NCBI GenBank assembly: GCA_020832185.1
Contig: JAFIFE010000008.1
Span: forward strand, 1-64,000
Origin: Alkalibacterium sp.
Lineage (GTDB): Bacteria; Bacillota; Bacilli; Lactobacillales; Carnobacteriaceae_A
Reading direction: 5' to 3'
DNA length: 64,000 bases
This document shows, one piece after another, positions 16,159 through 45,491 of the stretch. The notes below the pieces were generated by a model. The model made no database searches. It was given only the letters and a program-made list of their open reading frames with translations, and was not told where the DNA came from. Every line of letters begins with the position of its first letter. Position 1 is the first letter of the stretch. A program made the position numbers and the translations under genes.

Positions 16159-16168
16159 GATGTGCCTC

Positions 16169-16856: not shown

Positions 16857-16896
16857 TAACGGGAGCCTCCTTTTAAGTCATGCTCTTCTTAGTTTC

Positions 16897-16925
16897 AATA
16901 TAGACGTATGTCTATGTAAAGTCAA
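16897..16925 (-). promoter_or_regulatory. arsRDA promoter with ArsR-type operator
   Basis: On the minus strand TTGACT (16920-16925), 17 bp, TATATT (16897-16902). The palindrome ATAGAC-N4-GTCTAT (16900-16915) starts five bases after the -35 box and runs into the -10 box, so a bound repressor would block RNA polymerase. Confidence 0.8.
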
Positions 16926-17070
16926 GCGAAGCTGCCAAAGACTGAAATTAAAGGTCAAGTGACCGAAGAGAAAACAGATAGCTAGTTTGTGTGGACTTAT
17001 TCAACTCGGATAAATAGGGATGATTAAGATTCTTAATTAAAGGCGAATAGGTTGCACTCAAAGCATTCAG

Positions 17071-17353
17071 AAGAGTGAGTAATCTAAATAGAGGGATATA
17101 TGTGCAAGTCAAGGAGTGGGGCTTAGCCGAGTGGAGCATATAAAGGTCTGTAACTACTACTCAAATGCTAGAGGAAGAGTGAGTGATCTAAATAGAGAGA
17201 TATATGTGCAAGTCAAGGAGAGGGGCTTAGCCGAGTAGAGCATATAAAGGCCTGTAACTACTACTCAAGAGCTAGAGGAAGAGTGAGTAATCTAAATAGG
17301 GAGGTATTTGCGGAAGTCGAAGGATGGGGACTAGCCGGGTGGATCAAGTAAAG
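17071..17353. repeat. 104-bp tandem repeat, 2.7 copies
   Basis: Unit 1 is 17071-17174, unit 2 is 17175-17278 and a diverged partial unit 3 is 17279-17353. Units 1 and 2 differ at about seven positions. Each unit opens AAGAGTGAGTnATCTAAATAG and carries GGCTTAGCCGAGT in the middle. The unit length is not a multiple of three and no gene runs through it. The repeat fills the middle of a 628-base gap (16929-17556) between arsR and the ABC-F gene; nothing else was seen in that gap except the terminator at its end. Confidence 0.9.
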
Positions 17354-17460
17354 AAGAATAGAGTGAATTGAAAGTAATCGGAACAGCAAGGTAGACAAAT
17401 AAGCAGTAAATAAGGCGAACGTATAGCGCTGCAGAGACGCAAGCCGGACCTGATAAACAG

Positions 17461-17500
17461 AAAAATCCGGATAAAGAGGGAAGACATCTCTATCCGGATT
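17461..17500 (-). terminator. Terminator after YbiT-type ABC-F
   Basis: AATCCGGATA and TATCCGGATT are perfectly complementary around an AGAG/CTCT-extended loop. Read on the minus strand the stem is followed by TTTTT. Confidence 0.8.
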
Positions 17501-17556
17501 ATATTTAAGTTAAATCATACAGTGTAGTGATCGAAGTAGACAGACTGTCTCGTTAA

Positions 17557-19185: not shown

Positions 19186-19343
19186 ATTTATTATAGCCTC
19201 AATTCTTAATGTATTCATTTGGACATTTAGTCCATTACTTCTATTATACGCACTTTTCATGCGAAATGTCAGTGTTTAAGGTGATTTAGTGAAAAATGTT
19301 GAAAAAACGTCAAAAGTCGGTCATATATAAGGATCACAAAGGG

Positions 19344-20534
19344 TTAAAGAAAAAAGCCTAAGAGCAGGACGGAACCAATAATGATTGGAACAGGGACTTT
19401 TTTAGTGTGCAGCAATACGACAGTGGATAAGGTGACGAGTAAGTTAATGAATGTAACTCCGCTTTGCTGTGTGAGAATGACTGCAGCAACAGCTATGAGT
19501 CGGCCAGCTACAGCTGTAACGCCTTTGAGAGCGACTCTAAATCCTTTGATGAGTTTTAAATTCTCCCACATCGGGTATACAAAGAAAATAAGCAATACAC
19601 CAGGAAGAAAAATTCCGATACCACCAGCTAATGCGCCAAGAATTTGAGTGAAAACCGTTGCGTTCTGGACAGACAGTCCGCCTGCATATGCACTAAAGCT
19701 GAACATGGGACCAGGAATTCCCTGAACCAGGCCGTAACCCGTCAGAAATTCCTCGCTGGTCATTAAGGCATTCACATCTACCAGTTCACTGTACATAAGT
19801 GGAATAACGACTTGCCCACCTCCGACAACTAAATAACCATAACGGTAAAAGCGTTCAAATATGTCGATCAGTTCACTTTGGAAAATCAAAGCGGCCAGCA
19901 GACTGCCTATCGTAAAAAACAGGAACAATGCCAAGTACTTGTATGGAGGATTGAGTTCAACTTTATACCAGAGATCTTTTTCCCGTGTAATATAGAGGGA
20001 AACAAGTCCACCAATCAGAAAGACTAGCGGGAAGATCCATGCGGCTCGTATAAAGTAAGTGGTGATGAAACCGAATAAAAACAAGGCAACCGTCATGCGG
20101 TCGTATACAACCTTTTTCCCTATTTTATAGGCAGCTAGAATAATAAAACCGACAGCCAGTGGTCCAATAAAGCGTAATATATCAGCTGAGATATTTTGAG
20201 CATCCAGAAACTGATACAAAAAAGATAGCGTCGTCATGATCGCGAGTGCGGGAAGCGCCCAGACCAGCATGGTCAATAGTGCCAAAATAGGGCCGCCGAC
20301 TTTATGCCCGATGGCAATGATCGTTTGTGTACTGCTGGGTCCAGGTAAAAAGGCGCATAAAGCCATCAGCTCAACAATGTCTTCCTCGGTTAAGTATTCT
20401 TTCTTTATGACCATCTGATCGGTGAACACACCGTAATGTGCTTCGGGTCCTCCAAATGCGCCAAGGGAACAGATAAGGACATCTTTTAAGAATGCTGACC
20501 ATTGGACTGTTCTATTTTTTGCGTTGTCTTCCAT
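19344..20534 (-). CDS. chrA: Chromate transporter ChrA family
   Basis: A membrane protein of 396 aa built from two homologous CHR domains. The first has GAFGGPEAHYGVF and LPGPSSTQ, the second has GGGQVVIPLM and GIPGPMFSFSAYAGG. Members export chromate using the proton gradient, though many are only inferred to do so. ATG 20534 follows AGGAGATGACACC; in-frame starts further upstream (20582) have no site. The gene is divergent from cadD, and the 187-base spacer holds promoters for both. A likely -35/-10 on the minus strand is TTGAAA, 16 bp, TATACT. Confidence 0.9.
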   Translation of the reverse strand: MEDNAKNRTVQWSAFLKDVLICSLGAFGGPEAHYGVFTDQMVIKKEYLTEEDIVELMALCAFLPGPSSTQTIIAIGHKVGGPILALLTMLVWALPALAIMTTLSFLYQFLDAQNISADILRFIGPLAVGFIILAAYKIGKKVVYDRMTVALFLFGFITTYFIRAAWIFPLVFLIGGLVSLYITREKDLWYKVELNPPYKYLALFLFFTIGSLLAALIFQSELIDIFERFYRYGYLVVGGGQVVIPLMYSELVDVNALMTSEEFLTGYGLVQGIPGPMFSFSAYAGGLSVQNATVFTQILGALAGGIGIFLPGVLLIFFVYPMWENLKLIKGFRVALKGVTAVAGRLIAVAAVILTQQSGVTFINLLVTLSTVVLLHTKKVPVPIIIGSVLLLGFFL

Positions 20535-20630
20535 GGTGTCATCTCCTAGTTTAGTATTAAAAATCATATGACTGATCGGCATTTCCTTTTTAAGTATATA
20601 GTAAGGCGGAATGTTTTCAATATAGTCGGT

Positions 20631-20645
20631 ACAGGATTAACCTGT
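20631..20645. promoter_or_regulatory. Inverted repeat between chrA and cadD
   Basis: ACAGG-ATTAA-CCTGT is a perfect 5-bp inverted repeat upstream of both promoters. It could bind a chromate-responsive regulator, but the short arms make chance possible. Confidence 0.3.
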
Positions 20646-20647
20646 TT

Positions 20648-20676
20648 TTTACATAAGATAGACAAGCGTCTATAAA
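20648..20676 (+). promoter_or_regulatory. cadD promoter with ArsR-type operator
   Basis: TTTACA (20648-20653), 17 bp, TATAAA (20671-20676). The palindrome ATAGAC-AAGC-GTCTAT (20658-20673) has the same arms, same 4-bp centre length and same position relative to the promoter as the one before arsR. Confidence 0.75.
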
Positions 20677-20721
20677 GTGAGTATACTGAAATGGATTTTA
20701 GATAAAGGAGGAAGTGCGTTG

Positions 20722-21330
20722 ATGTCCGTTCTATTTACTGCACTGGTTTCTTATATAGGAACCAGCATCGATTATATTATCGTGCTTATTTTACTCTTTG
20801 CGCACATTCGAAAAAACTCAAAAGGCATTATGGCCATTGTGCTTGGGCAATATGTGGGGCTGGGTATATTATTAGGAATCAGTATACTGGCAGCATATGG
20901 CTTGGGGTTTATCCGGGAGGACTGGGTCGGGTTTTTAGGGTTAGTACCGATTTTTTTAGGCCTGAAAGTGGCGTTTGAAAAAGAGGAAGAAGGGGAAGCT
21001 GAAGAGGCCGTAGAATCATCCTTTGTGAAACATAAAAATGTGTTCTGGAGTGTGGTCTTTTTAATGCTGGCTTTAGGTGGAGATAATTTGGGTGTCTACA
21101 TCCCATTATTTGCAGCTTTTTCACTAAGCGAACTTGTATTGACAATAGGTGTGTACTTTGTTTTATCAGCGGGGTTGTTATTTGGAACGTATAAAATTGC
21201 TGAAGTAAATAAAGTCAGTAACTGGGTTGAAAAATATGAAAGAGTCCTCGTGCCTTTAGTGTTTGTTGGGATCGGGCTATATATCATGTGGGAAAGCGGG
21301 ACCTTTCTCTTTCTCGCGAATCTGTTGTAG
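20722..21330 (+). CDS. cadD: CadD-family cadmium resistance transporter
   Basis: An integral membrane protein of 202 aa, the usual length of CadD. It has about five to six hydrophobic segments, a cytoplasmic Glu-rich loop (KEEEGEAEEAVE) and the conserved LGGDNLGVYIPLFAAFS. Members lower cadmium (and sometimes zinc) sensitivity; whether by export or binding is not settled. ATG 20722 follows AAAGGAGG; an upstream in-frame start at 20677 has no site. CadD is often regulated by an ArsR-family CadC encoded next to it. None is encoded here, which fits control by the ArsR at 16506 through the shared operator. Confidence 0.9.
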   Translation: MSVLFTALVSYIGTSIDYIIVLILLFAHIRKNSKGIMAIVLGQYVGLGILLGISILAAYGLGFIREDWVGFLGLVPIFLGLKVAFEKEEEGEAEEAVESSFVKHKNVFWSVVFLMLALGGDNLGVYIPLFAAFSLSELVLTIGVYFVLSAGLLFGTYKIAEVNKVSNWVEKYERVLVPLVFVGIGLYIMWESGTFLFLANLL

Positions 21331-21443
21331 CCCATTCTTTACATAGATTTTACACTATTCTATACAAAGGGTATGGATTGTAAAAATAAGACTTGGTACA
21401 CTTATTCTGTAATACGCTGGAATATTTGGAAGGAGTATAAAAT

Positions 21444-23102
21444 ATGAAAATTGTTATCATCGGTTCGGTTGCTGCAGGGACTTCTGTGGCGGCCAAAGCA
21501 AGACGTAATGACGAATCAGCAGAGATCATTGTGTATGAAGCGGCAGAAGATATATCCTATTCTGTATGTGGAATGCCGTATTTTTTAGGTGGAGAAGTAG
21601 AGACGATCGACGAGCTGATTCCTCGAGATCCTCAGTGGTTCAAGAAACGCTTTGAAATTGATATTCATACCACTCACTTCGTTAAAGCCATACACCCTGA
21701 TGAAAAAACCATAGATGTGTACAATAAAGCAAAGGGTGTCAGTTTTCGTGAATCGTTTGACAAACTGATACTGGCGACTGGATCGTATTCGTTAAGTCCT
21801 GCACCGTTTAACTTAAAACAGCATGACAATATCTTCCACGTTAAGTCAATGGATGACACTAGAGCCATTGACCAGTATATGAAAACGACTGACGTCAAAA
21901 ATGTAACCATAGTGGGATCCGGATTTATCGGGCTTGAAATGACAGAACAATTAGCTCAAAAGGGACTGAATGTGTCGATTGTCGAGCTGGCAGATCAGGT
22001 TTTCCCTAAAATTGATGCTGATATGTCGGTCCATCTGAAAAAAGAACTGATTACGCATGGTATTGATCTCTATTTAGGGGATAAAGTAACAGCTATTCAA
22101 GGAGAGTCTAAAGCGTCGGTTCTAACCACTAAAAATGGAGTTGAGCTGCAGACAGATATGGTGATTTTAGCGGTTGGTGTTCGTCCGAATACGAATCTGG
22201 CAACCAATACAAGTATTCAATTAGGGCAGACTGGGGCCATCAAGGTTAATGAATTCATGGAAACCTCAGTAAAAGATGTTTTTGCAGTTGGAGACGTTGC
22301 GGAAAGCTTCCATAGAGTAACCGGTAAACCCATTTACCATCCACTAGGGTCAACTGCCAATAAAATGGGACGAATTGCTGGCGATTATATTACCGGTGGA
22401 AAGTTGTCATTCAAAGGGACGCTGGGAACCGGTATTTTCAGACTGTTTGATTTAACTATAGGCTACACTGGCTTATCTCCCTCAGAAGCAAAAGCGGCTG
22501 GGTTCGATCCTGTGGTCGTTCACAATATCAAACCGGCGCATGCTCAGTATGTCGGTGGTAAAAACATGGTGATCAAAGCAGTGGCTGACCGCGAAACCGG
22601 GCGATTCTTAGGGGCACAGATTGTCGGGCCACAAGGGGTTGACAAGCGTATCGATGTCTTTGCCACGGCTATTTCGTTTGAAGCCAATGCAGAAGAGCTG
22701 TTTGATCTTGATTTAGCGTATGCACCCCCTTTCAGTACAACCAAGGATCCCGTCATTTATACAGGAATGGTTCTGGAAAATGCGAGAGAACACTTGCCTC
22801 TTATGACACCTGAAGAAGTGATCAGCAAGCAGAAAGCCGGAGAGCACATGCAAGTTGTCGATGTCCGTTCACCAAAGCAGTATGAGAAAAATCATGTCGA
22901 TCAGGCAGTCAATATTCCGATGCCGAAGCTGCGTAACAGACTGGACGAACTGGATAAGTCTCTTCCTACTGTTGTTTACTGTAATAAAGGGGTCACCAGT
23001 AATACGGCTCAAAATGTGCTGCGAAATAATGGGTTCGAGGACGTTTACGTGTTATCTGGGGGAAATACCAATTTTCATTACTATTTAGATAGTTTAAATT
23101 AA
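21444..23102 (+). CDS. cdr: CoA-disulfide reductase with C-terminal rhodanese domain
   Basis: A flavin disulfide reductase of 552 aa. It begins KIVIIGSVAAGTSVAAKARR (FAD site). The single active-site Cys42 lies in SYSVCGMPYF, as in CoA-disulfide and persulfide reductases, and an NAD(P)H-binding motif VGSGFIGLEM is near 155. From about 455 a rhodanese domain follows with the loop YCNKGVTS (Cys about 512). Such CoADR-RHD fusions reduce CoA persulfide or polysulfide. Its place between cadD and acr3 suggests a role in thiol balance under metal stress, which is inference. AAGGAG precedes ATG 21444. Confidence 0.92.
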   Translation: MKIVIIGSVAAGTSVAAKARRNDESAEIIVYEAAEDISYSVCGMPYFLGGEVETIDELIPRDPQWFKKRFEIDIHTTHFVKAIHPDEKTIDVYNKAKGVSFRESFDKLILATGSYSLSPAPFNLKQHDNIFHVKSMDDTRAIDQYMKTTDVKNVTIVGSGFIGLEMTEQLAQKGLNVSIVELADQVFPKIDADMSVHLKKELITHGIDLYLGDKVTAIQGESKASVLTTKNGVELQTDMVILAVGVRPNTNLATNTSIQLGQTGAIKVNEFMETSVKDVFAVGDVAESFHRVTGKPIYHPLGSTANKMGRIAGDYITGGKLSFKGTLGTGIFRLFDLTIGYTGLSPSEAKAAGFDPVVVHNIKPAHAQYVGGKNMVIKAVADRETGRFLGAQIVGPQGVDKRIDVFATAISFEANAEELFDLDLAYAPPFSTTKDPVIYTGMVLENAREHLPLMTPEEVISKQKAGEHMQVVDVRSPKQYEKNHVDQAVNIPMPKLRNRLDELDKSLPTVVYCNKGVTSNTAQNVLRNNGFEDVYVLSGGNTNFHYYLDSLN

Positions 23103-23107
23103 TTGAT

Positions 23108-23141
23108 GACAGGGAGAGACCACACTTTCCCTGTCTTTTTT
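23108..23141 (+). terminator. Terminator after cdr
   Basis: GACAGGGA pairs with TCCCTGTC around GAGACCACACTT, followed by TTTTTT. Confidence 0.85.
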
Positions 23142-23175
23142 AATTAAACTATAATGAAATAAGCCAGACTATTGA

Positions 23176-23226
23176 TTGACGAATAGTCTAAATTAACGTA
23201 CTCTTTATATATAGGTACTTGTCTAT
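23176..23226 (+). promoter_or_regulatory. acr3 promoter with imperfect ArsR-type operator
   Basis: TTGACG (23176-23181), 17 bp, TACTCT (23199-23204). Directly at the expected start of transcription lies ATAGGT-ACTT-GTCTAT (23211-23226). Its right arm and the following GTA match the arsR operator, and its left arm has two mismatches. Confidence 0.5.
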
Positions 23227-23304
23227 GTACGAGGTTGCGGAATGCGCTATTATTTTTTTCATCTGTATATAGATGGTTGTTTATATAAAAAGGAGGACAT
23301 AACG

Positions 23305-24369
23305 ATGTCAGATACTGTAAAGCACGATCCGAACATCAGCATTTTTGAAAAATACTTAACGGTCTGGGTACTCATTTGTATGGGAGTCGGCATTCTCATC
23401 GGTCAGTTTTTACCGGTCATACCGGAGACTTTGAGCCGGTTTGAATACTATCAAGTCTCGATTCCAGTCGCTATACTGATCTGGATCATGATTTTTCCGA
23501 TGATGGTCAAAATCGATTTTACGAGTATTTTGAATGTGACGAAAAAACCTCGAGGACTTTTTCTGACGACCTTCATGAACTGGGCAATTAAACCGTTCTC
23601 GATGTTTCTGATAGCTTCTTTTTTCTTCCTTTTCGTTTTTGGAGGGCTGATCGAAGATGCCCTGGCGCGCGAATACATTGCGGGTGCCGTGCTGCTCGGA
23701 GCCGCACCGTGTACGGCTATGGTATTTGTCTGGAGTAAGCTGACAAACGGGGATCCAGCTTACACGCTGGTTCAAGTATCCGTCAATAATATCATCATTC
23801 TCCTTCTGTTCGCACCGATCGTGGCACTGCTTCTCGGAGTAGGAAATGTAATCGTTCCGTGGAACACGCTGATTCTGTCGACCATTTTATTTGTTGTTGT
23901 TCCTGTTGTTCTGGGATTCGCCACGCGAAAAACGGTCGTCAAGAAAAAAGGGATGGCTTATTTTGAAGAAGAATTCGTCAATAAATTCGATAAAGTGACC
24001 ATGATCGGGTTATTGATGACACTGACGATCATCTTCTCATTCCAGGGAGAACGTATTATTCAAAATCCGTATCACATTATCCTGATTTCTATCCCACTCA
24101 TTATTCAGACGTTCTTCATTTTTGTGGCAACTTATGGCGGAGCGTATGCATGTAAGCTGCCGTTTGCAGTAGCAGCACCGTCTGCATTTATTGGCGCAAG
24201 CAATTTTTTTGAACTGGCTGTGGCGGTGTCTATTTCTTTATTTGGACTGAACTCCGGAGCTACACTGGCAACAGTGGTAGGGGTGCTGGTCGAGGTGCCA
24301 GTCATGCTGCTGCTGGTGAAGATAGCCAACAAAACACAAGGAAAATTTGCCCGATTCGAAAACAACTAA
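23305..24369 (+). CDS. acr3: Arsenite efflux permease Acr3
   Basis: A ten-helix permease of 354 aa of the ACR3 branch of the bile acid:sodium symporter superfamily. It has the family start ISIFEKYLTVWVLICMGVG, the segment MIFPMMVKIDF, and the conserved Cys in LGAAPCTAMVFVWSKL that is needed for arsenite transport. ATG 23305 follows AAAGGAGG; the frame extends to 23242 without a site. It supplies the membrane pump that arsRDA lacks. ArsA is better known with ArsB, but ArsD-ArsA-Acr3 sets also occur. Its promoter carries a related operator, so joint induction by arsenite is likely. Confidence 0.93.
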   Translation: MSDTVKHDPNISIFEKYLTVWVLICMGVGILIGQFLPVIPETLSRFEYYQVSIPVAILIWIMIFPMMVKIDFTSILNVTKKPRGLFLTTFMNWAIKPFSMFLIASFFFLFVFGGLIEDALAREYIAGAVLLGAAPCTAMVFVWSKLTNGDPAYTLVQVSVNNIIILLLFAPIVALLLGVGNVIVPWNTLILSTILFVVVPVVLGFATRKTVVKKKGMAYFEEEFVNKFDKVTMIGLLMTLTIIFSFQGERIIQNPYHIILISIPLIIQTFFIFVATYGGAYACKLPFAVAAPSAFIGASNFFELAVAVSISLFGLNSGATLATVVGVLVEVPVMLLLVKIANKTQGKFARFENN

Positions 24370-24383
24370 GTAAATCAGATAAG

Positions 24384-24428
24384 ATGTCTTTAAGTCTCAA
24401 GAACATGCGGACTTAAAGATGTTTTTTT
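24384..24428 (+). terminator. Terminator after acr3
   Basis: CTTTAAGTC pairs perfectly with GACTTAAAG, followed by ATG and seven T. Confidence 0.85.
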
Positions 24429-24512
24429 GTATAAGTTTAACTTTTCCGGTATCTCGAGAAAGAATTTGATATACTACCAGTAGAAGATTTAATCAGAAAG
24501 TAGGACTCAGCT

Positions 24513-25520
24513 TTGACTAGCTATATCAATCAGTTTCCAATCAGTGTCATCATTATTCTTTTTATCGTTTCCTTGATTATTTTGTCACAGTCCGCCGATA
24601 AGCTTATTGACCGAGCAGTGGCGCTCTCACTGCATTTTGGCCTGTCAAAAGTAGTCGTTGGGGCAACCATCTTGTCTATAGGGACCACTCTTCCAGAAGT
24701 CGCCTCTTCAGTAGCCGCCACGTTAGGCGGAAACGGACAGTTTGGGCTCGGGAACGCGGTCGGCTCGATGATTACGAATGCCTCTCTGGTACTGGGGATC
24801 GGTGCGTTAGGCGGGATCATTCCTGTCAAAAACGAATTGAAGAAAACCTTTCTTTTCCTATGTGGCCTCTCGGGTATTTTCATCGCAACGAGCATAGGAG
24901 CGGGTCTGACTATTGAAGGTGGATACTTTCCAAGATGGACAGGTGGCGTGCTGCTGATCCTTCTCCCACTGTATTTGATTTACACTGTCAAGCAGAAACC
25001 GGAGGCGCTTCTTAATGAATTGCCTGAAGAAACCCTGTCAGAAACAGAAGACAAACGCTCGGTCAATATTGTCCAGTCTGTTCTGATTTTAATTGCCAGT
25101 TCTCTTGGAGTAACGTTTGGAGCAACCTTGCTTGTAGCCACAGCGGAAGTCAGTGCGGCTCGTTTAGGGATTCCGGATAGTGTGATCTCCTCAACGATCG
25201 TAGCGTTCGGGACAAGTGTTCCGGAAGTCACAACGACTCTGGTTGCAGTCAGATATGGGCATGGTGAGCTGGCGATCGGTAATGTACTTGGAGCTAATAT
25301 GATGAACCTTCTACTGGTCATGGGGACCACCATCACGCTGCTTCCTGGGGGAGTCAATGTGCCGTCCAGTTACTTCATGATTCAGTTTCCGATCCTTATC
25401 ATTGTTTTCATTCTTTTGAGCATTCCTATTCTTACAAAAAAAGTGGAAGCCATCAACCGACTGCAGGGGTTCCTGCTGATTGGGATTTATGCCCTTTATC
25501 TGTTCACAAACTTTATATAA
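24513..25520 (+). CDS. CaCA-family calcium/cation antiporter (YrbG type)
   Basis: A membrane antiporter of 335 aa with two inverted alpha repeats. Repeat 1 has GTTLPEVASSVAAT and NAVGSMITNASLVLG; repeat 2 has GTSVPEVTTTLVAV and NVLGANMMNLLLV. The Glu in each xPE motif binds the cation. Five helices stand on each side of a cytoplasmic Glu-rich loop (about 165-185). Members exchange Ca2+ for Na+, H+ or K+. The start is TTG 24513 with a modest AGTAGGA site; no in-frame ATG fits the family N-terminus better. It lies just after acr3 but behind a terminator, so it is a separate unit. Confidence 0.87.
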   Translation: MTSYINQFPISVIIILFIVSLIILSQSADKLIDRAVALSLHFGLSKVVVGATILSIGTTLPEVASSVAATLGGNGQFGLGNAVGSMITNASLVLGIGALGGIIPVKNELKKTFLFLCGLSGIFIATSIGAGLTIEGGYFPRWTGGVLLILLPLYLIYTVKQKPEALLNELPEETLSETEDKRSVNIVQSVLILIASSLGVTFGATLLVATAEVSAARLGIPDSVISSTIVAFGTSVPEVTTTLVAVRYGHGELAIGNVLGANMMNLLLVMGTTITLLPGGVNVPSSYFMIQFPILIIVFILLSIPILTKKVEAINRLQGFLLIGIYALYLFTNFI

Positions 25521-38292: not shown

Positions 38293-38333
38293 TTGATCTA
38301 TATCAAGGAACGATGGGCTATATCTGATAGAAT
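38293..38333 (+). promoter_or_regulatory. FNR-box promoter upstream of cupin gene
   Basis: A perfect FNR box TTGAT-CTAT-ATCAA (38293-38306). A -10 box TAGAAT (38328-38333) begins 28.5 bp from its centre, about the class II distance. The cupin start is about 200 bases downstream, so a long leader or a separate small RNA is implied. Confidence 0.65.
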
Positions 38334-38374
38334 AGGGGTATAGAGAAAACCGCTCATTTAATCCTCAATCCCTC

Positions 38375-38391
38375 ATTGTAACTGTTACAAT
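38375..38391. promoter_or_regulatory. 17-bp perfect palindrome in cupin upstream region
   Basis: ATTGTAAC-T-GTTACAAT, a perfect inverted repeat with one central base. It lies 42 bases past the FNR-driven -10 box. It could be an operator or a short RNA hairpin. It does not fit a CRE, Fur, PerR or LexA site well. The 410-base gap (38121-38530) holds no gene; a nearer promoter for the cupin may be TTGAGA, 16 bp, TATTCT at about 38463-38490. Confidence 0.45.
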
Positions 38392-38530
38392 CTGAAAATA
38401 GGATGATGACACCTAGTTATTGCTGTGAGGGCAAGCTTTTTTGAAAAATGAAGGGTAATTAGTTGAGATTTTTTCTTAACATGCTATTCTTACTTTAGAA
38501 TGAGTACAATTCCAAAAGGAGGAAGAAAAA

Positions 38531-38953
38531 GTGGACATAGATTACAAAGATCATGGCAAAACACCTTATATTATCAATATCGAGAAGGCTACGTTGGATA
38601 ATAACAACTACCGTACAACGATTTGGACAGGGAAGAAACTTCAGGTAACGGTCATGTCGATTGAACCAGGCGATGATATCGGACTGGAAGTGCATGAAGG
38701 GATCGATCAGTTTATTCGTATTGAAGAAGGACAAGGCGTATGTAAAATGGGCCCCACCAAAGATGATTTGAACCTGGAAGAAAAGGTAGCTGACGATGAT
38801 GCTGTATTTGTGCCAGCCGATATGTGGCATAACATCGAAAATACAGGTGACAAGCCACTTAAACTCTACACCATTTATGCCGGACCCGATCATGTAGAAG
38901 GCACGGTTCATCCGACTCATAAAGATGCAGAAAACGATCCTAACGAAGACTGA
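38531..38953 (+). CDS. Cupin domain protein
   Basis: A single-domain cupin of 140 aa. The first cupin motif is GDDIGLEVHEGIDQFIRIEEGQG, where His (and the Glu positions) are likely metal ligands; the second is VFVPADMWHNIENTG. The metal and substrate are unknown. It starts with GTG 38531 after AAAAGGAGGAAG, a near-perfect site. The N-terminus is acidic. An FNR box lies 225-238 bases upstream, suggesting oxygen- or redox-linked expression. Confidence 0.87.
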   Translation: MDIDYKDHGKTPYIINIEKATLDNNNYRTTIWTGKKLQVTVMSIEPGDDIGLEVHEGIDQFIRIEEGQGVCKMGPTKDDLNLEEKVADDDAVFVPADMWHNIENTGDKPLKLYTIYAGPDHVEGTVHPTHKDAENDPNED

Positions 38954-38978
38954 CCATCAAGCAGACCACTAAACTAAT

Positions 38979-39017
38979 CTAAAGCCTCCAGGAGTGACTT
39001 ATTCCTGGAGGCTTTAG
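38979..39017. terminator. Bidirectional terminator
   Basis: CTAAAGCCTCCAGGA and TCCTGGAGGCTTTAG form a perfect stem between convergent genes. Confidence 0.85.
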
Positions 39018-39023
39018 TATGTG

Positions 39024-39779
39024 TCAGGTCGCTAGAAAATCGATTAGCGTAAAGAGACCTAAAAGAAAGATGAAATAAATGACATACTTTCTGAAATGAT
39101 CAACTTGGATCTTTGAATAGAGATAATTTCCAAGACATATTGCCAAAATAACAGCAGGGATAGACCAAACATAATATAAACCGACCGAGCTCGTCCAGAA
39201 TCCACTCAAAAAATGACTGAAGATAATCAGCAGACTGGATAACAGGAAGTGAGCCTGCAAGTTGTCTTTGAATTCTTTAGGCGGCCAGTGTCTAGTTGTC
39301 CCGTATAAAACAATAGGAATCCCATTCATATTATACGCGCTTCCCAGCATTCCAGACGCAAAGCCAAACGGAAGAGAATACAGTGGATGGGTAAACGGGT
39401 TATGGCTCCTGTGGCCCTTGTTTCGAGTACTTATGATCGAGTAACTAGAATAGATGAGTAACAGGGAGCCTAGTATAAGATTGACCCACTGTCTTTGGAC
39501 AGACTGAACTAGAAATAGTCCAAAAGGAATACCTGACACAGTCGATAAGGACAACCACTTAAGGACCTGTTTATCTATATGTTTCCAGCTGGTAAATACG
39601 GAAAACAAAGCAACTGTAAATCCAACTAGTCCAACTAAAGCTACTGCTTCAGAAAAAGGAATGGGTAATAGAGCCAGTATAGGCATACTAATGACAGAGT
39701 CCCCAAATCCAAAGGTAGAGCGCATTAAGGAACCCAGAAACACTGCCCCTATGACTAATACAATCAGCGACACGTCCAC
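39024..39779 (-). CDS. TSUP (TauE/SafE) family membrane transporter
   Basis: A membrane protein of 251 aa with about eight helices. It begins SLIVLVIGAVFLGSLMRSTFGFGDSVISMP, where the STFGFG stretch is the first TSUP repeat motif, and has LPFGFASGMLGSAYNMNGIPIVLYG as the second. Members move sulfite, sulfonates or other organic anions. GTG 39779 was chosen because GGAGGTG lies five bases upstream. An FNR box (39811-39824) is 32 bases upstream, but it is spaced for the divergent fnr promoter, so at this gene it might act as a repressor site or not at all. Confidence 0.82.
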   Translation of the reverse strand: MDVSLIVLVIGAVFLGSLMRSTFGFGDSVISMPILALLPIPFSEAVALVGLVGFTVALFSVFTSWKHIDKQVLKWLSLSTVSGIPFGLFLVQSVQRQWVNLILGSLLLIYSSYSIISTRNKGHRSHNPFTHPLYSLPFGFASGMLGSAYNMNGIPIVLYGTTRHWPPKEFKDNLQAHFLLSSLLIIFSHFLSGFWTSSVGLYYVWSIPAVILAICLGNYLYSKIQVDHFRKYVIYFIFLLGLFTLIDFLAT

Positions 39780-39810
39780 ACATTCACCTCCAGAATCAAA
39801 CAGACATTTC

Positions 39811-39852
39811 TTGATTTGTATCAATTTAGTCGTTAATTTAATATGGTATAGT
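39811..39852 (+). promoter_or_regulatory. fnr promoter with class II FNR box
   Basis: A perfect box TTGAT-TTGT-ATCAA (39811-39824). A -10 box TATAGT (39847-39852) starts 29.5 bp from its centre, which puts the box at about -41.5, the class II activator position. This implies self-activation of the regulator at 39927. Confidence 0.75.
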
Positions 39853-39926
39853 AAGTGTAACATAAGTGGTCAAGAGTTATTAATTTACTGTGAAGGATAT
39901 ACCGTTCAACAATAGGAGATGGAGTA

Positions 39927-40631
39927 ATGAGTAATGAAAACCAGTTAAAAAAGAATGGGTGCAGTCCCTCTCATCAAGGCTGTGTATCGATGGTTCCTAT
40001 TTTTAATCATCTGGATGAGGTCCAAATGGAAGAGATCATGCAAACTGTTCAGTCTTACTCGTTTAAAAAAGGGGAACTGATTTACAGGGCGGGGGACACT
40101 TCCAATGTATTGACGATCGTAAATAAGGGGAGTCTTCGTATCTACCGATTATCTGAGTCAGGGAAAGAGCAGCTCGTCCGGGTGTTAAAACCTGGGGCAT
40201 TTACCGGCGAACTGGCTCTTTTCAACGAGACAGTACATGAGAATTATGCGGAAGCAATGGAGGAAACGTCGGTTTGTCAGATTACTCGTGAATCACTTGA
40301 GAAACTGCTCATTAAATACCCTTCTATTTCGTTGAAAATTCTTCAGGCCTTATCGACTCGTGTAGATGAAAGTGAACATCAGGCTACACAATTCTCGACA
40401 GAATCAACTGAGCAGCGGCTGGCATCTTACTTGGTAGATTTACTTGGAGAAGGCAATGAATCAATGATTGTGACACTGCCGATGACCAAAAAAGATCTGG
40501 CATCCTACATCGGAACGACTCCGGAAACGGTCAGTCGGAAGTTAAAAGAACTGGAAGACATGAAGCTGATCAAACGCATCAGTTCATCCAGAATCAAAAT
40601 TCTGGATGAAGATAACCTGTTGTTTCTATAA
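39927..40631 (+). CDS. Crp/Fnr-family regulator (Flp/Fnr-like)
   Basis: A transcription factor of 234 aa. It has an N-terminal cAMP-binding-like domain (about 25-140) and a C-terminal HTH whose recognition helix TPETVSRKLKELE carries the E-x-x-S-R set that reads TTGAT half-sites. Cys12 and Cys19 lie before the sensor domain and Cys117 within it. E. coli FNR needs four Cys for its [4Fe-4S] cluster, while Lactobacillus FLP uses a Cys pair as a dithiol switch; three Cys fit the second better, though this is inference. AATAGGAGATGGAGTA precedes ATG 39927. Three perfect FNR boxes lie within 2.6 kb. Confidence 0.92.
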   Translation: MSNENQLKKNGCSPSHQGCVSMVPIFNHLDEVQMEEIMQTVQSYSFKKGELIYRAGDTSNVLTIVNKGSLRIYRLSESGKEQLVRVLKPGAFTGELALFNETVHENYAEAMEETSVCQITRESLEKLLIKYPSISLKILQALSTRVDESEHQATQFSTESTEQRLASYLVDLLGEGNESMIVTLPMTKKDLASYIGTTPETVSRKLKELEDMKLIKRISSSRIKILDEDNLLFL

Positions 40632-40654
40632 GTTTAATAGAATATGAGACCTTG

Positions 40655-40682
40655 ACCCTGATCGACATGATCGGGGTTTTTG
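40655..40682 (+). terminator. Terminator after fnr-like gene
   Basis: ACCCTGATC and GATCGGGGT flank a short loop, followed by TTTTT. Confidence 0.8.
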
Positions 40683-40757
40683 TTATGCGATGGGCAGCTT
40701 TTTTAGGGGAAAGTTAGAAACTATATGGCAAGAAACATAAAGGGGGAGGCAGATAAG

Positions 40758-40808
40758 GTGGACCGGTTAAGAGAATTAAAAAAACTGAGGAATGAATTTA
40801 GTCTATAA
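40758..40808 (+). CDS. Possible 16-aa microprotein or gene remnant
   Basis: A very short frame, MDRLRELKKLRNEFSL when translated from GTG 40758, with the unusually strong site AAAGGGGGAGG seven to eight bases upstream. It lies between the fnr terminator and the next FNR box, which starts two bases after its stop. It might be a leader peptide, a microprotein or the start of a lost gene. Codon and length evidence is too slight to tell. Confidence 0.3.
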   Translation: MDRLRELKKLRNEFSL

Positions 40809-40809
40809 C

Positions 40810-40851
40810 TTGATACTGATCAATTTTAAGAAAAGAAGTCAGCGGTATACT
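40810..40851 (+). promoter_or_regulatory. Class II FNR-box promoter of HMA protein/ATPase genes
   Basis: A perfect box TTGAT-ACTG-ATCAA (40810-40823). The -10 box TATACT (40846-40851) starts 29.5 bp from its centre, exactly as in the fnr promoter. Confidence 0.75.
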
Positions 40852-40904: not shown

Positions 40905-41138
40905 ATGGAAAAAGCGATCATCAAATTGGAAACACTGTCTTGCCCGAGCTGTCTGCAGAAGATAGAGAATGCGCTGCAAGGGGTTGAGGGTGTAGATAAA
41001 GAGAGTATATCCGTCTTATTCAACTCGAGTAAAGTGAAAATGACGTATGACTCTAAACAGACCTCAATAGAAGCAATCGAGAAAACGATCGAAGCTCTGG
41101 GGTACCCGGTAATTAAGTCAACGGTTAAAGCAGCATAA
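40905..41138 (+). CDS. HMA-domain metal-binding protein (CopZ-like)
   Basis: A free-standing heavy-metal-associated domain of 77 aa. The metal site is LETLSCPSCLQKIENAL; CPSC stands where CopZ has GMxCxxC, but the Met is replaced by Leu. The rest, VEGVDKESISVLFNSSKVKMTYD and IEALGYPV, is the standard ferredoxin-like fold. AAAGGAGAGATATCAA precedes ATG 40905. It probably delivers a soft metal to the P-type ATPase 200 bases downstream, which has no HMA domain of its own. An FNR-box promoter drives it. Confidence 0.88.
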   Translation: MEKAIIKLETLSCPSCLQKIENALQGVEGVDKESISVLFNSSKVKMTYDSKQTSIEAIEKTIEALGYPVIKSTVKAA

Positions 41139-41199: not shown

Positions 41200-41232
41200 C
41201 CCGGAGAGCAGTTAAAATCTTTCCGGGTTTTA
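41200..41232 (+). terminator. Terminator between HMA protein and ATPase genes
   Basis: CCCGGA and TCCGGG flank a 16-base loop, followed by TTTT. The stem is short and some read-through into the ATPase is likely. Confidence 0.6.
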
Positions 41233-41342
41233 CATAGCAGCTGTGCAGTTAACTATATCCATACTAGATAGCAGTCAATTTTATGCCGATACAGACTGGT
41301 TATACTGTAGATAAGAACATAAGTAAAAAAGGAGGATGCATC

Positions 41343-43235
41343 ATGCAGTCAATTATTTTAAGTAGAAAAAAACTCATCATGCTGATCAGTGGGGTACTCA
41401 TCGTGCTCGGTTTTTTCAGTCGATTTGTATTTGGGAACATGCTGGTATTTGAAGGGGCATTAGTCATTGCTTCCGTTTTAGGGATTACACCTATTGCCAT
41501 CCAGGCTTTTCAGGCCTTGAAAGTAAAAGTCATCAGTATCGATGTTTTAGTCACGATAGCCGTTACAGGTGCTCTTCTGATTCAGAACTTTGAAGAATCA
41601 GCTATTGTAACGTTCCTGTTTCTCTTCGGCCATTTTCTGGAACAGCGCACATTGAATAAGACCCGATCCGCCATAAAAGAATTGACTGAAATGGCGCCAG
41701 AAAGTGCAATGGTTCAAATGGCCAGCGGAGACTTTGAAGAAGTAGATGTGGAGGAAGTTGACGAAGGGGACACCTTATTGGTCAAAACAGGTGGAAAAGT
41801 ACCGGTCGATGGCACAGTCGTCGTTGGGAGCGGTTATATTAACGAAGCAAGCATTACGGGTGAGTCAGTTTCCGTGACCAAAGAAAAGGATTCTACTGTT
41901 TTTGCCGGAACTATTCTTGAAAATGGAACACTTCAGATACGGGCTGACCGAGTCGGGGAAGACACAACATTTGGACGAATAATAGAACTGGTTGAAGAAG
42001 CTCAAGACTCGAAATCAGAAGCCGAGCGGTTTATTGACCGTTTCTCTAAATACTATACCCCTGTTGTTTTGCTGCTGTCCTTCGTTGTCTGGCTGTTCAG
42101 TCAGAATCTTGAACTGGCGATCACTATTTTAGTACTGGGCTGTCCCGGAGCCCTAGTGATTGGCGTACCGGTGTCAAATGTTGCCGGTATCGGAAACGGC
42201 GCACGTAATGGAGTGCTGCTTAAAGGGAGTGAAGTTATTCATGATTTCAGTCGAGTGGATACCATTGTTTTTGACAAAACAGGCACACTGACTGCTGGAA
42301 ATCCAACAGTCGCAGACACCAGAGTGTATGTAAGTGAGAAACAACAAGTGTTGAACTATCTAGCGAGTGTGGAGCATGAATCAGACCATCCTCTTGCCAG
42401 AGCTGTAGTGGAGACTATTAAGGACGCGCATATCTACCCTGTTGAAGAGACAGAAGTAGTGAAGGGTGGCGGAGTGGTATCGACTGTAGATGGACACCGT
42501 ATTGCAGTTGGAAATGTGGCGCTAATGGAAAGGGAAGAGATTTCACTAGATGATGAGGCGTTAAATGATGTAAAGGAATTTGAACTGAATGGCAACTCTC
42601 TTGTATTAGCAGCAATGGATGGAAAAGTGGCATTAGTGATGGGGATTCGTGACCAGGTCCGACCGGGTGTTAAAGCAAATCTGCAGGAACTGAAAGCAAT
42701 GGGCATCAAGCAGTTAGTGGTCCTTTCAGGAGATAATCAAGGAACTGTTGATGCTGTCGCTGGTGAATTAGGACTGACAGACGCATACGGACATATGCTG
42801 CCGGAGGATAAAGCGGCTTATATCAAAGAGCTGCAAGAAAAGGGACAGATTGTTGCTTTCGTAGGGGATGGTGTGAATGACAGTCCTTCATTGGCTCTAG
42901 CAGACATCGGGATTGCAATGGGAAACGGAACGGATGTGGCGATTGAAACTTCTGATGTCGTCTTGATGAACTCAGATTTCAGTCATTTGCCGCATGCATT
43001 AGGTCTCACGAAAGCAACAGCTAATAATATGATACAAAATATAGTGATTGCGGTTGGTGTCGTGTTGATCCTATTAGTCAGTGTGTTTTTCAGCGACTGG
43101 ATGACCATGTCGATCGGCATGCTGGTTCATGAAGCCAGTATTCTTGTGGTCATATTTAATGGCATGCGTTTGCTCAACTACCGCTCACGAAAAAATAAAC
43201 AATCGGCCAAAGGAGTCCATTTAAGGACAGCTTGA
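41343..43235 (+). CDS. P1B-type heavy-metal ATPase with CPG motif
   Basis: A metal-transporting P-type ATPase of 630 aa. It has TGES (actuator), DKTGTLTAGNP with the phospho-acceptor Asp (about 310), the nucleotide-binding ESDHPLARA, and GDGVNDSPSLALADIGIAMG. The membrane metal site reads LGCPGALVIGVPVSN (about 264), so the usual CPC/CPH/SPC is CPG. No N-terminal HMA domain is present; the 77-aa HMA protein upstream may replace it. The ion cannot be named with confidence. ATG 41343 follows AAAAGGAGG; an in-frame start at 41283 has no site. Confidence 0.9.
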   Translation: MQSIILSRKKLIMLISGVLIVLGFFSRFVFGNMLVFEGALVIASVLGITPIAIQAFQALKVKVISIDVLVTIAVTGALLIQNFEESAIVTFLFLFGHFLEQRTLNKTRSAIKELTEMAPESAMVQMASGDFEEVDVEEVDEGDTLLVKTGGKVPVDGTVVVGSGYINEASITGESVSVTKEKDSTVFAGTILENGTLQIRADRVGEDTTFGRIIELVEEAQDSKSEAERFIDRFSKYYTPVVLLLSFVVWLFSQNLELAITILVLGCPGALVIGVPVSNVAGIGNGARNGVLLKGSEVIHDFSRVDTIVFDKTGTLTAGNPTVADTRVYVSEKQQVLNYLASVEHESDHPLARAVVETIKDAHIYPVEETEVVKGGGVVSTVDGHRIAVGNVALMEREEISLDDEALNDVKEFELNGNSLVLAAMDGKVALVMGIRDQVRPGVKANLQELKAMGIKQLVVLSGDNQGTVDAVAGELGLTDAYGHMLPEDKAAYIKELQEKGQIVAFVGDGVNDSPSLALADIGIAMGNGTDVAIETSDVVLMNSDFSHLPHALGLTKATANNMIQNIVIAVGVVLILLVSVFFSDWMTMSIGMLVHEASILVVIFNGMRLLNYRSRKNKQSAKGVHLRTA

Positions 43236-43249
43236 CCGATGGTATCATG

Positions 43250-43287
43250 AGCCCTCTTCTGGACTGTTTCCAGAGGGCTTTTTTTTG
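43250..43287 (+). terminator. Terminator after P-type ATPase gene
   Basis: AGCCCTCT and AGAGGGCT form a perfect stem, followed by TTTTTTT. Confidence 0.85.
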
Positions 43288-43445: not shown

Positions 43446-44084
43446 TTGAATACTATTACTGCGAACCCCATGTTCAGTTCTATAGTGGTACTGATCGTGG
43501 GAGTCATCGTCTGGTTTGGCCTTTCTGACGGTGAAATGCGAGAAAAAAAGGCAATCCTGTCTATTTTTATGGATGTGGTCTTCTATTTTGTGCTTTTTCT
43601 GTTCGGTTTTAATGCCATACTGAATCTATCAGAAATAATTGAAGTACCGTATAGGGTATTATTGTTTTCATCACCTATCGTCTGGCTGGCAACGTTAAGT
43701 ATCGTTGTCTATGGTGGAATAAAATACGGCAGACCCTTATGGGAAAATCCATCCAAAGCGAAAAGTGTCTCAGTCCTTTTGACACTTATCGGCCTGAGTA
43801 ATCATTTGTACTTATACTTTTTGTACTCATCGACCTATGCCTTACGCTTTATTGGACTCTATCTGATTCTCTTACTGCTTTTATCATTTACATCAATTGT
43901 AGAAAAAGTAAACCCGGTTTTTGTTTTGCTGGGGACTGGAATCGTGCATGCACTGCTTATGGGTGGACACTCGACTATCTATTTTAATTTTGCATTTAAC
44001 GCGATTCCATTGCTTACGCTCTTTCTCGTCTTGAGCGCGGTACTGATGTTTCAAAGGAGGAAAAGCTTATCACAACAGAACTAA
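43446..44084 (+). CDS. Unrecognised polytopic membrane protein
   Basis: A hydrophobic protein of 212 aa with about six helices. I do not recognise the family. Charged loops include LSDGEMREKK and ENPSKAKSV; HALLMGGHS near 175 holds two His in or near a helix, which could bind heme or metal. It starts with TTG 43446 after AAGGAG. It is the first gene of a unit with ccdA and a TlpA-like thioredoxin, so a role in electron or thiol transfer across the membrane is a reasonable guess and no more. Confidence 0.6.
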   Translation: MNTITANPMFSSIVVLIVGVIVWFGLSDGEMREKKAILSIFMDVVFYFVLFLFGFNAILNLSEIIEVPYRVLLFSSPIVWLATLSIVVYGGIKYGRPLWENPSKAKSVSVLLTLIGLSNHLYLYFLYSSTYALRFIGLYLILLLLLSFTSIVEKVNPVFVLLGTGIVHALLMGGHSTIYFNFAFNAIPLLTLFLVLSAVLMFQRRKSLSQQN

Positions 44085-44092
44085 CAGCACTG

Positions 44093-44806
44093 ATGGCTCT
44101 TTCGGCCGGGGCTTTGTCCTTTTTATCTCCCTGTACGTTACCGCTTCTCCCGTTATATCTATCATATATTACCGGGAAGAGTGTAAAGGAAGTCAAAGAA
44201 AATAATTCCAGAGCGTTCAAGAAAAGTGTGATGCTCCATTCGCTAGTCTTCCTGATCGGTGTGTCGACTGTCTATGTGAGTCTCGGATTAAGCATTACGT
44301 ATCTCGGCGAATTTTTTACAACATTAATGACCGGTTCGACCAGCGTGTTTCTTCAAAGAATAGCTGGACTCCTGATCATTGTCATGGGACTCGCAACGGC
44401 AGAGTGGCTGCACATTCCCGCACTTCTTAAAGATACACGCAAGATGAATGGAAAACGCACGACGAGCTTTCTATCCAGCTACTTTATTGGATTAGGGTTT
44501 GCGGCCGGATGGACACCTTGTATCGGTCCCATTTTTTCTTCGATTCTGCTGATTGGGATCTCAACAGGGTCGCCACCCGCAATTTACTTGACCCTCTATA
44601 TCATTGGTTTCGCGCTGCCGTTTTTACTCGTATCCTTTTTCATTGGAAAAATGGACAGTATTATGAAACACAGCCGAAAACTGATGAAAATCGGTGGAGT
44701 CTTGATGATTATGATGGGTATCCTGCTGTTTACAGGGGCACTGGAATCCTTGTCTGAAATACTGGCACAGTGGCTTCAAGGCACCCCTTTTGAATTACTG
44801 GGTTAA
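44093..44806 (+). CDS. ccdA: CcdA-type thiol:disulfide interchange membrane protein
   Basis: A membrane protein of the CcdA/DsbD family, 237 aa from ATG 44093, which carries electrons from cytoplasmic thioredoxin to the outside. The two redox Cys lie in SFLSPCTLPLLPLYLSYITG and GWTPCIGPIFSSIL, each followed by Pro-rich turns. ATG 44093 has no ribosome binding site. A perfect AAAGGAGG (44054-44061) instead faces an in-frame ATC at 44069, which would add eight residues and restore the usual CcdA N-terminus. The true start may therefore be non-standard. Confidence 0.88.
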   Translation: MALSAGALSFLSPCTLPLLPLYLSYITGKSVKEVKENNSRAFKKSVMLHSLVFLIGVSTVYVSLGLSITYLGEFFTTLMTGSTSVFLQRIAGLLIIVMGLATAEWLHIPALLKDTRKMNGKRTTSFLSSYFIGLGFAAGWTPCIGPIFSSILLIGISTGSPPAIYLTLYIIGFALPFLLVSFFIGKMDSIMKHSRKLMKIGGVLMIMMGILLFTGALESLSEILAQWLQGTPFELLG

Positions 44807-44840
44807 CCATAAGATGCGGATTAAGTGAGGAGAATAATAG

Positions 44841-45491
44841 ATGCTGAAAAAAGGAATGTGGGCGTTACTGGCTTTAGTTTTAGCCTTTGTCGTCTACGAT
44901 TTTGTAACGGGACTGAATCAGGAACAACAGGTGAGAGAACAGGCGGGCATACAGGTTCAGGACAGTATGGAAGAAGAAACAGTCGATTTAACAGATGAAG
45001 AGGCAGAGGCGCTTCTTGAAAATCTAGACAGTGGGTCACTCAATACGGAAGTTGAGTCAGGGGTGGAGTACGGCTTGAGAGCAGGCAACACCGCTTATGA
45101 TTTTGAGCTGGAAGATAGGGAAGGCAACACCGTTCGGTTGTCGGACTTCAGAGGGCAGAAAGTGTTCCTGAATTTCTGGGCTAGCTGGTGTCCGCCTTGC
45201 CGTGTTGAGATGCCTCACCTGCAGGAATTTCATGAAGAAAACGAGGATGTAGTGGTATTGGGAGTGAACGTCATGTCGTCTGAAAGTCATCCTGAGAATG
45301 CAGGCACCTTTATTGATGAGTTGGGTCTGACGTTCCCCAATGTATATGGTGTAGATGACATTGTCGATTTATTTCTGGTCGAGTCGCTGCCAACCTCATA
45401 CTTTATTGGAACAGACGGGACTGTCTATGAACGCGTGGTCGGACCGGTAACTAAGGATATACTGGAAGCCCGCTTCTCAATGATCGACTAA
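44841..45491 (+). CDS. TlpA/ResA-type membrane-anchored thioredoxin
   Basis: An extracytoplasmic thiol-disulfide protein of 216 aa. An N-terminal anchor helix (about 5-22) is followed by an acidic linker rich in Glu and Asp (about 30-70), then the redoxin domain with FWASWCPPCRVEMPHL (about 113). VESLPTSYFIGTDG contains the cis-Pro. CcdA encoded just upstream would keep its CxxC reduced. Family members serve cytochrome c maturation or other thiol repair; no cytochrome genes are visible, so the client is unknown. GTGAGGAG precedes ATG 44841. Confidence 0.9.
   Translation: MLKKGMWALLALVLAFVVYDFVTGLNQEQQVREQAGIQVQDSMEEETVDLTDEEAEALLENLDSGSLNTEVESGVEYGLRAGNTAYDFELEDREGNTVRLSDFRGQKVFLNFWASWCPPCRVEMPHLQEFHEENEDVVVLGVNVMSSESHPENAGTFIDELGLTFPNVYGVDDIVDLFLVESLPTSYFIGTDGTVYERVVGPVTKDILEARFSMID

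Follow-up and report, generated by a model that had tools for sequence, protein, structure and literature searches.

The flp locus and its promoters

The DNA analysed here, called the window, is a 64,000-nt stretch of contig C23 of an Alkalibacterium sp. genome (2.64 Mb in 28 contigs), and the subject is a group of genes around flp, together with the promoter boxes that precede them. The flp gene (39927..40631, + strand) encodes a CRP/FNR-family activator of 234 amino acids (aa) with Pfam cNMP_binding and HTH_Crp_2 domains, cysteines C12, C19 and C117, and a recognition helix bearing E200, S203 and R204. Upstream on the same strand lies the gene of a 140-aa cupin-domain protein (38531..38953; Pfam Cupin_2, 1.1e-13), to which no function was assigned. 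Downstream, also on the + strand, are genes for a 77-aa HMA-domain protein with a CPSC motif (40905..41138; Pfam HMA, 1.9e-12) and for a heavy-metal P1B ATPase (41343..43235; TIGR01525, 561.9 bits with a cut-off of 346.25), which carries CPG in its transmembrane metal motif and HEASI near the C-terminus. A TauE/SafE family permease gene (39024..39779, minus strand; Pfam TauE, 6.8e-31) is divergent from flp and convergent with the cupin gene.

Perfect TTGAT-N4-ATCAA boxes lie exactly where the first-pass annotation had placed them, at 38293-38306, 39811-39824 and 40810-40823. The class II spacing claimed for them is also confirmed: the distance from box centre to the start of the -10 hexamer is 28.5 bp for the first (TAGAAT at 38328) and 29.5 bp for the other two (TATAGT at 39847 and TATACT at 40846). 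Box 1, TTGATCTATATCAA with the extended -10 TGATAGAAT (38293..38333, + strand), is a possible distal cupin promoter. Box 2, TTGATTTGTATCAA with TATAGT preceded by TGG (39811..39852, +), and box 3, TTGATACTGATCAA with TATACT (40810..40851, +), are the predicted promoters of flp and of the HMA gene, respectively. A fourth, degenerate box had been overlooked: TAGATAGCAGTCAA, followed by TATACT at a gap of 22 (41265..41306, +), is the predicted ATPase promoter. Here and below, the gap is the number of bases between the end of the box and the -10 hexamer. Judged from the -10 sequences, the boxes stand at -41.5 or -40.5 and are accompanied by no -35 element, as in class II promoters. Box 4 reads TAGAT-N4-GTCAA and was found by admitting R where the right half begins and at most two mismatches, a search that gives 3 matches with 0.18 expected. 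The ATPase start is taken as 41343, because a start at the alternative position 41283 would precede the -10 of box 4; box 2 falls within the longest mechanical reading of the TauE open reading frame (ORF; 39024-39863), whose start is taken as 39779.

The window contains 4 perfect boxes compared with 0.19 expected, and none of 100 shuffles reaches 4. With TANNNT demanded at a gap of 20-23, the numbers are 3 and 0.03, and again no shuffle of 100 reaches the observed value. When one mismatch is allowed and no -10 is demanded, the excess is smaller (12 versus 6.0, with 3 shuffles reaching 12). The remaining perfect match, at 7160-7173, lies within a 513-aa ORF, lacks a correctly spaced -10 and is probably not a site.

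Terminator-like hairpins divide the cluster. A strong one (38979..39017, no strand assigned; RNA fold z -6.65 for the segment 38960-39030) separates the cupin gene from the convergent TauE/SafE gene, and hairpins resembling intrinsic terminators follow flp (40654..40678, +; terminator scan and RNA fold) and the ATPase gene (43255..43277, +; terminator scan). Between the HMA and ATPase genes lies another (41200..41227, +), with 9 pairs followed by TTTT and z -2.27, which is outside the listing of the terminator scan with its loop limit of 8. Because hairpins follow the cupin, flp and HMA genes, HMA and ATPase are probably separate units, and by sequence the cluster consists of four units of one gene each, with one promoter design repeated four times. 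The first-pass annotation had assigned boxes to the cupin gene, to flp and to an HMA/ATPase pair. Each of cupin, flp and HMA is indeed preceded by one, but the pair is probably not under a single box, given the hairpin at 41200-41227 and box 4 at 41265. For the same reasons a single HMA-ATPase operon under box 3 is not the simplest reading.

The promoter code in related loci and genomes

The spacing was counted in two sets of loci. The first comprises 36 loci around Flp genes or targets, and the independent set comprises 71 further loci (Bacilli, Clostridia and others), namely 80 named loci minus 9 (L112-L118, L144 and L149) that overlap the first set. Before counting, promoters with the same 50-mer were dropped, as were ORFs at most 320 bp from a locus end. 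The first set contains 84 oriented perfect boxes, 36 of which are followed by TANNNT at gap 22, with a mean of 2.9 at other gaps; the corresponding values for the independent set are 42 of 98 and 3.8. For control palindromes of the same composition, the number of perfect oriented sites is 0-2 in the first set (six palindromes) and 0-12 in the second (four palindromes). No -35 element was detected over 150 promoters, the best TTGACA match averaging 2.43 of 6 positions versus 2.51 at random positions. The alignment of 140 sites, for which the box and part of the -10 were preselected, reads AAAC-TTGAT-N4-(A/G)TCAA-(T/G)TTT.

According to the presence of a box at most 300 bp upstream, the targets in the first set are HMA (25/31), ATPase (18/25), Dps (4/7) and cupin genes (2/3), compared with 7 of 324 other ORFs of at least 150 aa, which were called mechanically and are in part spurious. 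None of 7 TauE genes has such a box. The independent set reports 34/49 for HMA and 16/46 for ATPase genes, compared with 15/644 for other ORFs.

Genome-wide counts follow the regulator. Exact boxes with TATNNT at gap 22 give 62 oriented hits in 32 Flp-positive genomes and 6 in 28 Flp-negative ones, and the reversed control gives 10 over all 60 genomes. Flp matches behind this split score at least 116 bits (next score 54), and the ATPase matches used for the co-occurrence count below score at least 495 bits (next 420). Both lists were read by eye, the 60-genome tallies were summed by hand, and palindrome rows found on both strands count twice. Within the genus Alkalibacterium, 10 of 12 genomes have sites, and 34 of the 36 rows are at Flp or CPG-ATPase genes; the other two genomes (G006 and G011, one of which is 89% complete) have neither Flp nor CPG ATPase nor sites. 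Among 59 relatives, 30 have both Flp and the CPG ATPase, 1 has Flp alone, none the ATPase alone and 28 neither. All but one of the 77 CPG pumps in the retrieved loci (76/77) have an Flp gene at most 5 kb away, but co-occurrence is the fairer test, because nearly all of these loci were chosen for Flp. The boxes, their spacing, the target genes and the co-occurrence are what sequence and comparison show.

In the genome under study there are 18 perfect boxes, compared with 2 for a reversed-pattern control. The scan for boxes with a class II -10, suggested as a check by the first-pass annotation, leaves 6 of these 18 (gap 21-22), 3 in the window and 3 on contig C26. The remaining 12 have no class II geometry, and 10 of them are within ORFs of at least 100 aa. 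A gap-22 scan with one mismatch allowed returns 29 rows versus 3 in the reversed control. Its 23 one-mismatch rows are distributed as 17 inside ORFs of at least 100 aa, 4 at the two metal clusters and 2 in intergenic positions elsewhere (L029 and L047). Since one-mismatch sites are almost all inside ORFs or at the metal clusters, the regulon looks dedicated to metal genes, although weaker targets are possible. At L029 (C1:331378-331419) a one-mismatch box with TAGATT at gap 22 stands 175 bp upstream of an Spx/ArsC-like ORF and is a possible weak extra target.

The second cluster (L016, C26:1-12000; genes at L016:3064-6941, minus strand) contains genes for a 103-aa protein, an HMA protein, a CPG ATPase, a second HMA protein and Dps. 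Perfect or one-mismatch gap-22 boxes precede the 103-aa gene, both HMA genes and the ATPase gene, and Dps lies 40 bp after the second HMA gene. The description of the regulon as local is therefore too narrow, as the same promoters occur on another contig. The 103-aa protein has no Pfam or NCBIfam match and only a low-confidence model (predicted local distance difference test, pLDDT, of 65). ATPases 98-99% identical to the C26 copy are found amid HMA, Dps and boxes in G007, G009, G010 and G020, the last being from another genus, and an ORF fragment that we read as integrase-like lies near the C26 cluster; for these reasons the cluster looks mobile. No flp was found in the C26 stretch, and the only one in the genome is the window copy, so a mobile-looking cluster of this kind would rely on the resident Flp. 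Ownership of the boxes by another Crp/Fnr protein was considered and rejected, because in a PF13545 search of the genome Flp is the sole protein over the cut-off for a Crp-type helix-turn-helix, with three weak partial matches below it.

Flp, the CPG ATPase and their partners

The best PDB matches of Flp are FNR structures. Conservation was assessed over 108 distinct Flp proteins, retained for an identity of 33% or more across 190 columns. The recognition-helix residues E200 (108/108), S203 (107/108) and R204 (108/108) are kept and are the same as in the FNR structure match. In FNR these residues contact the half-site, and their retention therefore fits a TTGAT half-site. Among the cysteines, C19 occurs in 108/108 and C117 in 106/108 proteins, whereas C12 (at the position of Cys16) is present in 19/108. 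In the alignment C19 and C117 correspond to Cys23 and Cys122 of E. coli FNR, with a one-residue gap close to C19. Of the four cluster ligands of E. coli FNR (Cys20, Cys23, Cys29 and Cys122), only Cys23 and Cys122 thus have conserved equivalents in Flp. The Cys20 position is occupied by H16 (His in 65/108) and that of Cys29 by P24; H28 is found in 102/108.

The stretch of up to 20 residues before C19, counted in those of the 108 proteins that match the motif around C19, contains 24.5% His and Cys compared with 2.5% in the rest, a roughly tenfold enrichment, which makes this tail look metal-binding. In the window protein, C12 and H16 are the only His or Cys residues of this tail. Flp is 83% identical to a regulator of Alkalibacterium olivapovliticus, and relatives at 54-83% identity are found in Bacilli, Clostridia and single metagenome bins called Acholeplasmataceae and Fusobacteria, which may be mixed.

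Of the 80 ATPase copies that share 40% identity or more with a reference pump, 77 have CPG and 3 have CPC, the latter matching the ZntA reference. HExS[IV] is present in 67 of 69 distinct CPG pumps (one of the others is cut by the contig end and one reads HQAS), and none of the 69 has an N-terminal CxxC. The CPC motif of P1B-1 and P1B-2 pumps is absent from the window protein, which has CPG. In comparison with the P1B-4 ATPases sCoaT (7QBZ) and DR1440, which has SPC, the window pump keeps H and E of the HEGxT motif (HEAS in place of the HEGS of sCoaT). It differs in having CPG in place of SPC, in lacking the T, for which CPG pumps have I or V, and in having a separate HMA partner. CPG pumps cluster together in the ATPase tree with support of 99/97; the tree is unrooted, has two long branches and was built from 33 rows chosen for spread, 30 of them different.

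Within 6.5 kb of Flp in the 80 named loci, the CPG ATPase is found in 56, an HMA protein in 55 and both in 52. The loci encode 74 distinct HMA proteins, and 65 of these have CPSC. Dps occurs in clusters of this genome and of relatives. A RIC/ScdA-like protein of about 100 aa lies near Flp in 20 of 80 loci, with a box at most 200 bp upstream in 10 of the 20; one example is L161:8819-9121, and in other Alkalibacterium the gene stands between HMA and ATPase. Its profile match is TIGR03652 (8.4e-13, 48.6 bits with a cut-off of 204.7). The model (pLDDT 91) superimposes on S. aureus ScdA with Z 12.0 and 2.3 A over 100 residues (Foldseek E 2.8e-3). Since helical bundles reach such Z by fold alone, it is the profile match that matters for this call. 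With about 100 aa and a score far below the cut-off, the protein resembles the RIC/ScdA/YtfE Fe-S repair proteins in profile and model but is not a full RIC.

Two Enterococcus plasmids that were looked at carry Dps, Crp/Fnr, HMA and ATPase genes in the same order (L201:5685-9905 from E. gallinarum and L202:3596-8905 from E. faecium). The first also carries optrA and fexA, and the second a CadD gene. Since the module occurs on plasmids, knowing its metal and signal would help to explain how these plasmids affect their hosts.

Regulon, metal and signal

The best explanation, to which we assign a probability of about 0.6, is a small dedicated FNR-type metal-stress regulon under Flp. The sequence and its comparison support an Fnr/Flp-centred regulon with class II geometry and metal-pump targets, the anatomy of which the first-pass annotation had predicted well. 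The regulon appears real, and its signal and metal are unproven. Under this explanation, a redox or metal change at a C19/C117/His site would activate Flp, which would bind TTGAT-N4-(A/G)TCAA boxes centred at about -41.5 and switch on promoters that have a -10 and no -35, by class II activation. The targets in the window, each a separate unit, would be flp itself, the cupin gene, the HMA gene and the CPG-type P1B ATPase gene, and those in trans would be the mobile-looking C26 cluster with its ATPase, two HMA proteins, Dps and the 103-aa protein. The output would be metal efflux and buffering. What we infer is that Flp binds and activates, which way the pump transports, which metal it carries and which signal is sensed; export is suggested by the family of the pump.

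Several observations weigh against this explanation. Loci and genomes are related, so the counts are not independent draws, and it is the agreement of the separate sets that carries the weight. The exact TATNNT site is absent from 7 of 32 Flp-positive genomes and present in 5 of 28 Flp-negative ones. Box 4 and two of the C26 boxes have mismatches, and box 1 combines the 28.5-bp spacing with the absence of an AAAC flank, before a gene that has another candidate promoter. Self-activation, which had been predicted, is consistent with the box before flp in the window but is not general: of 34 flp genes in the Lactobacillales set, 12 have a box at most 300 bp upstream, but this holds for only 5 of 71 flp genes in the independent set, in which flp is frequently placed after the ATPase gene.

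Chance is the easiest rival to dismiss. TTGAT and ATCAA are fairly common words, and two thirds of the perfect genome sites (12/18) have no class II geometry, so a chance cluster of boxes might be imagined. It was rejected as having a practically negligible probability on account of the window shuffles, the gap-22 peak in two locus sets, sites that track Flp and are scarce in Flp-negative genomes, and one-mismatch sites checked singly. A different doubt concerns box 1, which could mark the start of a short separate transcript or be a remnant rather than the cupin promoter. The box does precede the cupin gene, as had been noted, but about 200 bp upstream of its start. This leader contains a weak hairpin (38420-38434) with a T run, and a possible second sigma-70-like promoter, TTGAGA-16-TATTCT (38463..38490, +), lies nearer. 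That site comes from a consensus scan of the region yielding 9 candidates versus 12.4 in shuffles and is weak alone. The hairpin, however, is no better than shuffles (z -0.89), and a site aligned with box 1 is found at the same place in two other Alkalibacterium (by eye; L093 perfect with gap 23, L092 with one mismatch and CATACT), which makes this reading unlikely. A small RNA from box 1 in particular is unsupported, the sole Rfam match in the window being a tRNA.

Regarding the signal, Flp may instead be an oxygen or NO redox switch, working through an FNR-like cluster or a C19-C117 disulfide, so that the pump genes would answer anoxia or oxidants and not metal as such. The conservation of C19 and C117 would suit a disulfide, the Dps and RIC-like partners suit oxidative or nitrosative stress, FlpS-dependent arcABC expression in S. 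suis differs according to oxygen, and FlpA is described as using non-cysteinyl residues to bind a cluster that is oxygen-labile (PMC5039431). The same source describes Gram-positive FNR-like proteins as often having two cysteines, with cluster formation debated. The equivalents of Cys20 and Cys29, however, are missing from Flp, its tail is enriched in His and Cys, and outside the two metal clusters no correctly spaced site precedes a recognised anaerobic-metabolism gene. We regard the switch as plausible but somewhat below an even chance, and redox control of the regulon is, from sequence, unproven. A role for bound metal in Flp is favoured, though not claimed. In its boldest form, Flp would be a metal sensor on an FNR frame, with the [4Fe-4S] site rebuilt as a mixed site of C19, C117, tail histidines such as H16 and perhaps the near-invariant H28, and the loaded form would activate the CPG P1B exporter and HMA, elsewhere also Dps and the mini-RIC. 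This is rather unlikely, but if true would define a Firmicutes-wide and also plasmid-borne metal-activated FNR system that uses activation instead of derepression.

As for the metal, Fe(II) is our tentative candidate, at just under an even chance, with the Dps and RIC-like partners as a hint toward iron. Neither of these genes, however, is in the window cluster. Cu(I) or Zn(II) would be a better match for the CPSC of the HMA partner, and the L. lactis flp studies reportedly concern zinc. A conventional homeostasis or resistance set for zinc, cadmium, cobalt or copper is accordingly close to an even bet as well. It is favoured by the CPSC motif, by a CadD gene and a CDF transporter adjoining one Enterococcus plasmid copy, and by the one motif common with P1B-4 pumps, whose cargo is tabled as Co, Cd and Zn with Fe under other classes (PMC7558416). 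P1B-4 ATPases are also described as devoid of heavy-metal-binding domains (PMC8880997), flpB is involved in zinc homeostasis (PMC9964109), and the FlpA regulon of lactic acid bacteria is classed under metal homeostasis (PMC3616900). Against a non-iron metal stand the Dps and RIC-like partners, which handle iron, and the CPG motif, which is unlike the CPC of Zn/Cd and Cu pumps. The P1B-4 pump DR1440 is a potential iron exporter (PMC6091924).

In comparison with known systems, we read the regulator, by its features, as a variant of the Flp regulators of lactic acid bacteria, that is, an FNR-type activator dedicated to metal stress. It has in common with L. casei FLP, L. lactis FlpA/FlpB and S. 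suis FlpS the FNR-family fold, two conserved cysteines and the link to metal homeostasis (PMC3616900, PMC5039431, PMC9964109), with target functions here assigned by family. It differs in the separate class II promoter for each window gene, in the CPG ATPase, HMA and, elsewhere, Dps and RIC-like partners, and in its wider taxonomic range. An earlier proposed FlpA motif was not found upstream of flpB (PMC3547956). With E. coli-type FNR, Flp shares the E..SR recognition helix, and its boxes share the site and the placement, whereas only the Cys23 and Cys122 equivalents are conserved and the His/Cys-rich tail is added. TTGAT-N4-ATCAA and -41.5 are the E. coli FNR site and placement, and the flp genes of L. 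lactis end orfX-orfY-flp operons.

A literature search, which left most subscription journals outside its coverage, found nothing joining Flp or Crp/Fnr with a CPG ATPase, Dps or RIC, and nothing on a CPG class of P1B ATPases. As far as it could show, the fixed-spacing promoter code, the CPG ATPase clade as a constant partner and the RIC-like partner are new, as are the tail rich in His and Cys, the occurrence outside lactic acid bacteria and the existence of a second cluster that lacks a regulator of its own. Poorly understood FNR-like proteins are thereby linked with a precise promoter code and with a single, uncharacterised pump clade, and it becomes directly testable whether Flp responds to oxygen, thiol state or metal, which is a long-standing question.

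Two further stretches of the window contain other genes. Downstream of the ATPase, at 43446-45491, are genes for a membrane protein without a family, a CcdA/DsbD-like protein and a ResA-like thioredoxin, which are also found in the Alkalibacterium loci L093, L094 and L097; no box lies upstream of them (0/4 each). At 14431-25520, ORF translations read by eye include ArsA-, ArsD- and ArsR-like, chromate-transporter-like, CadD-like, CoA-disulfide-reductase-like and ACR3-like proteins, and the stretch resembles a metal-resistance region.

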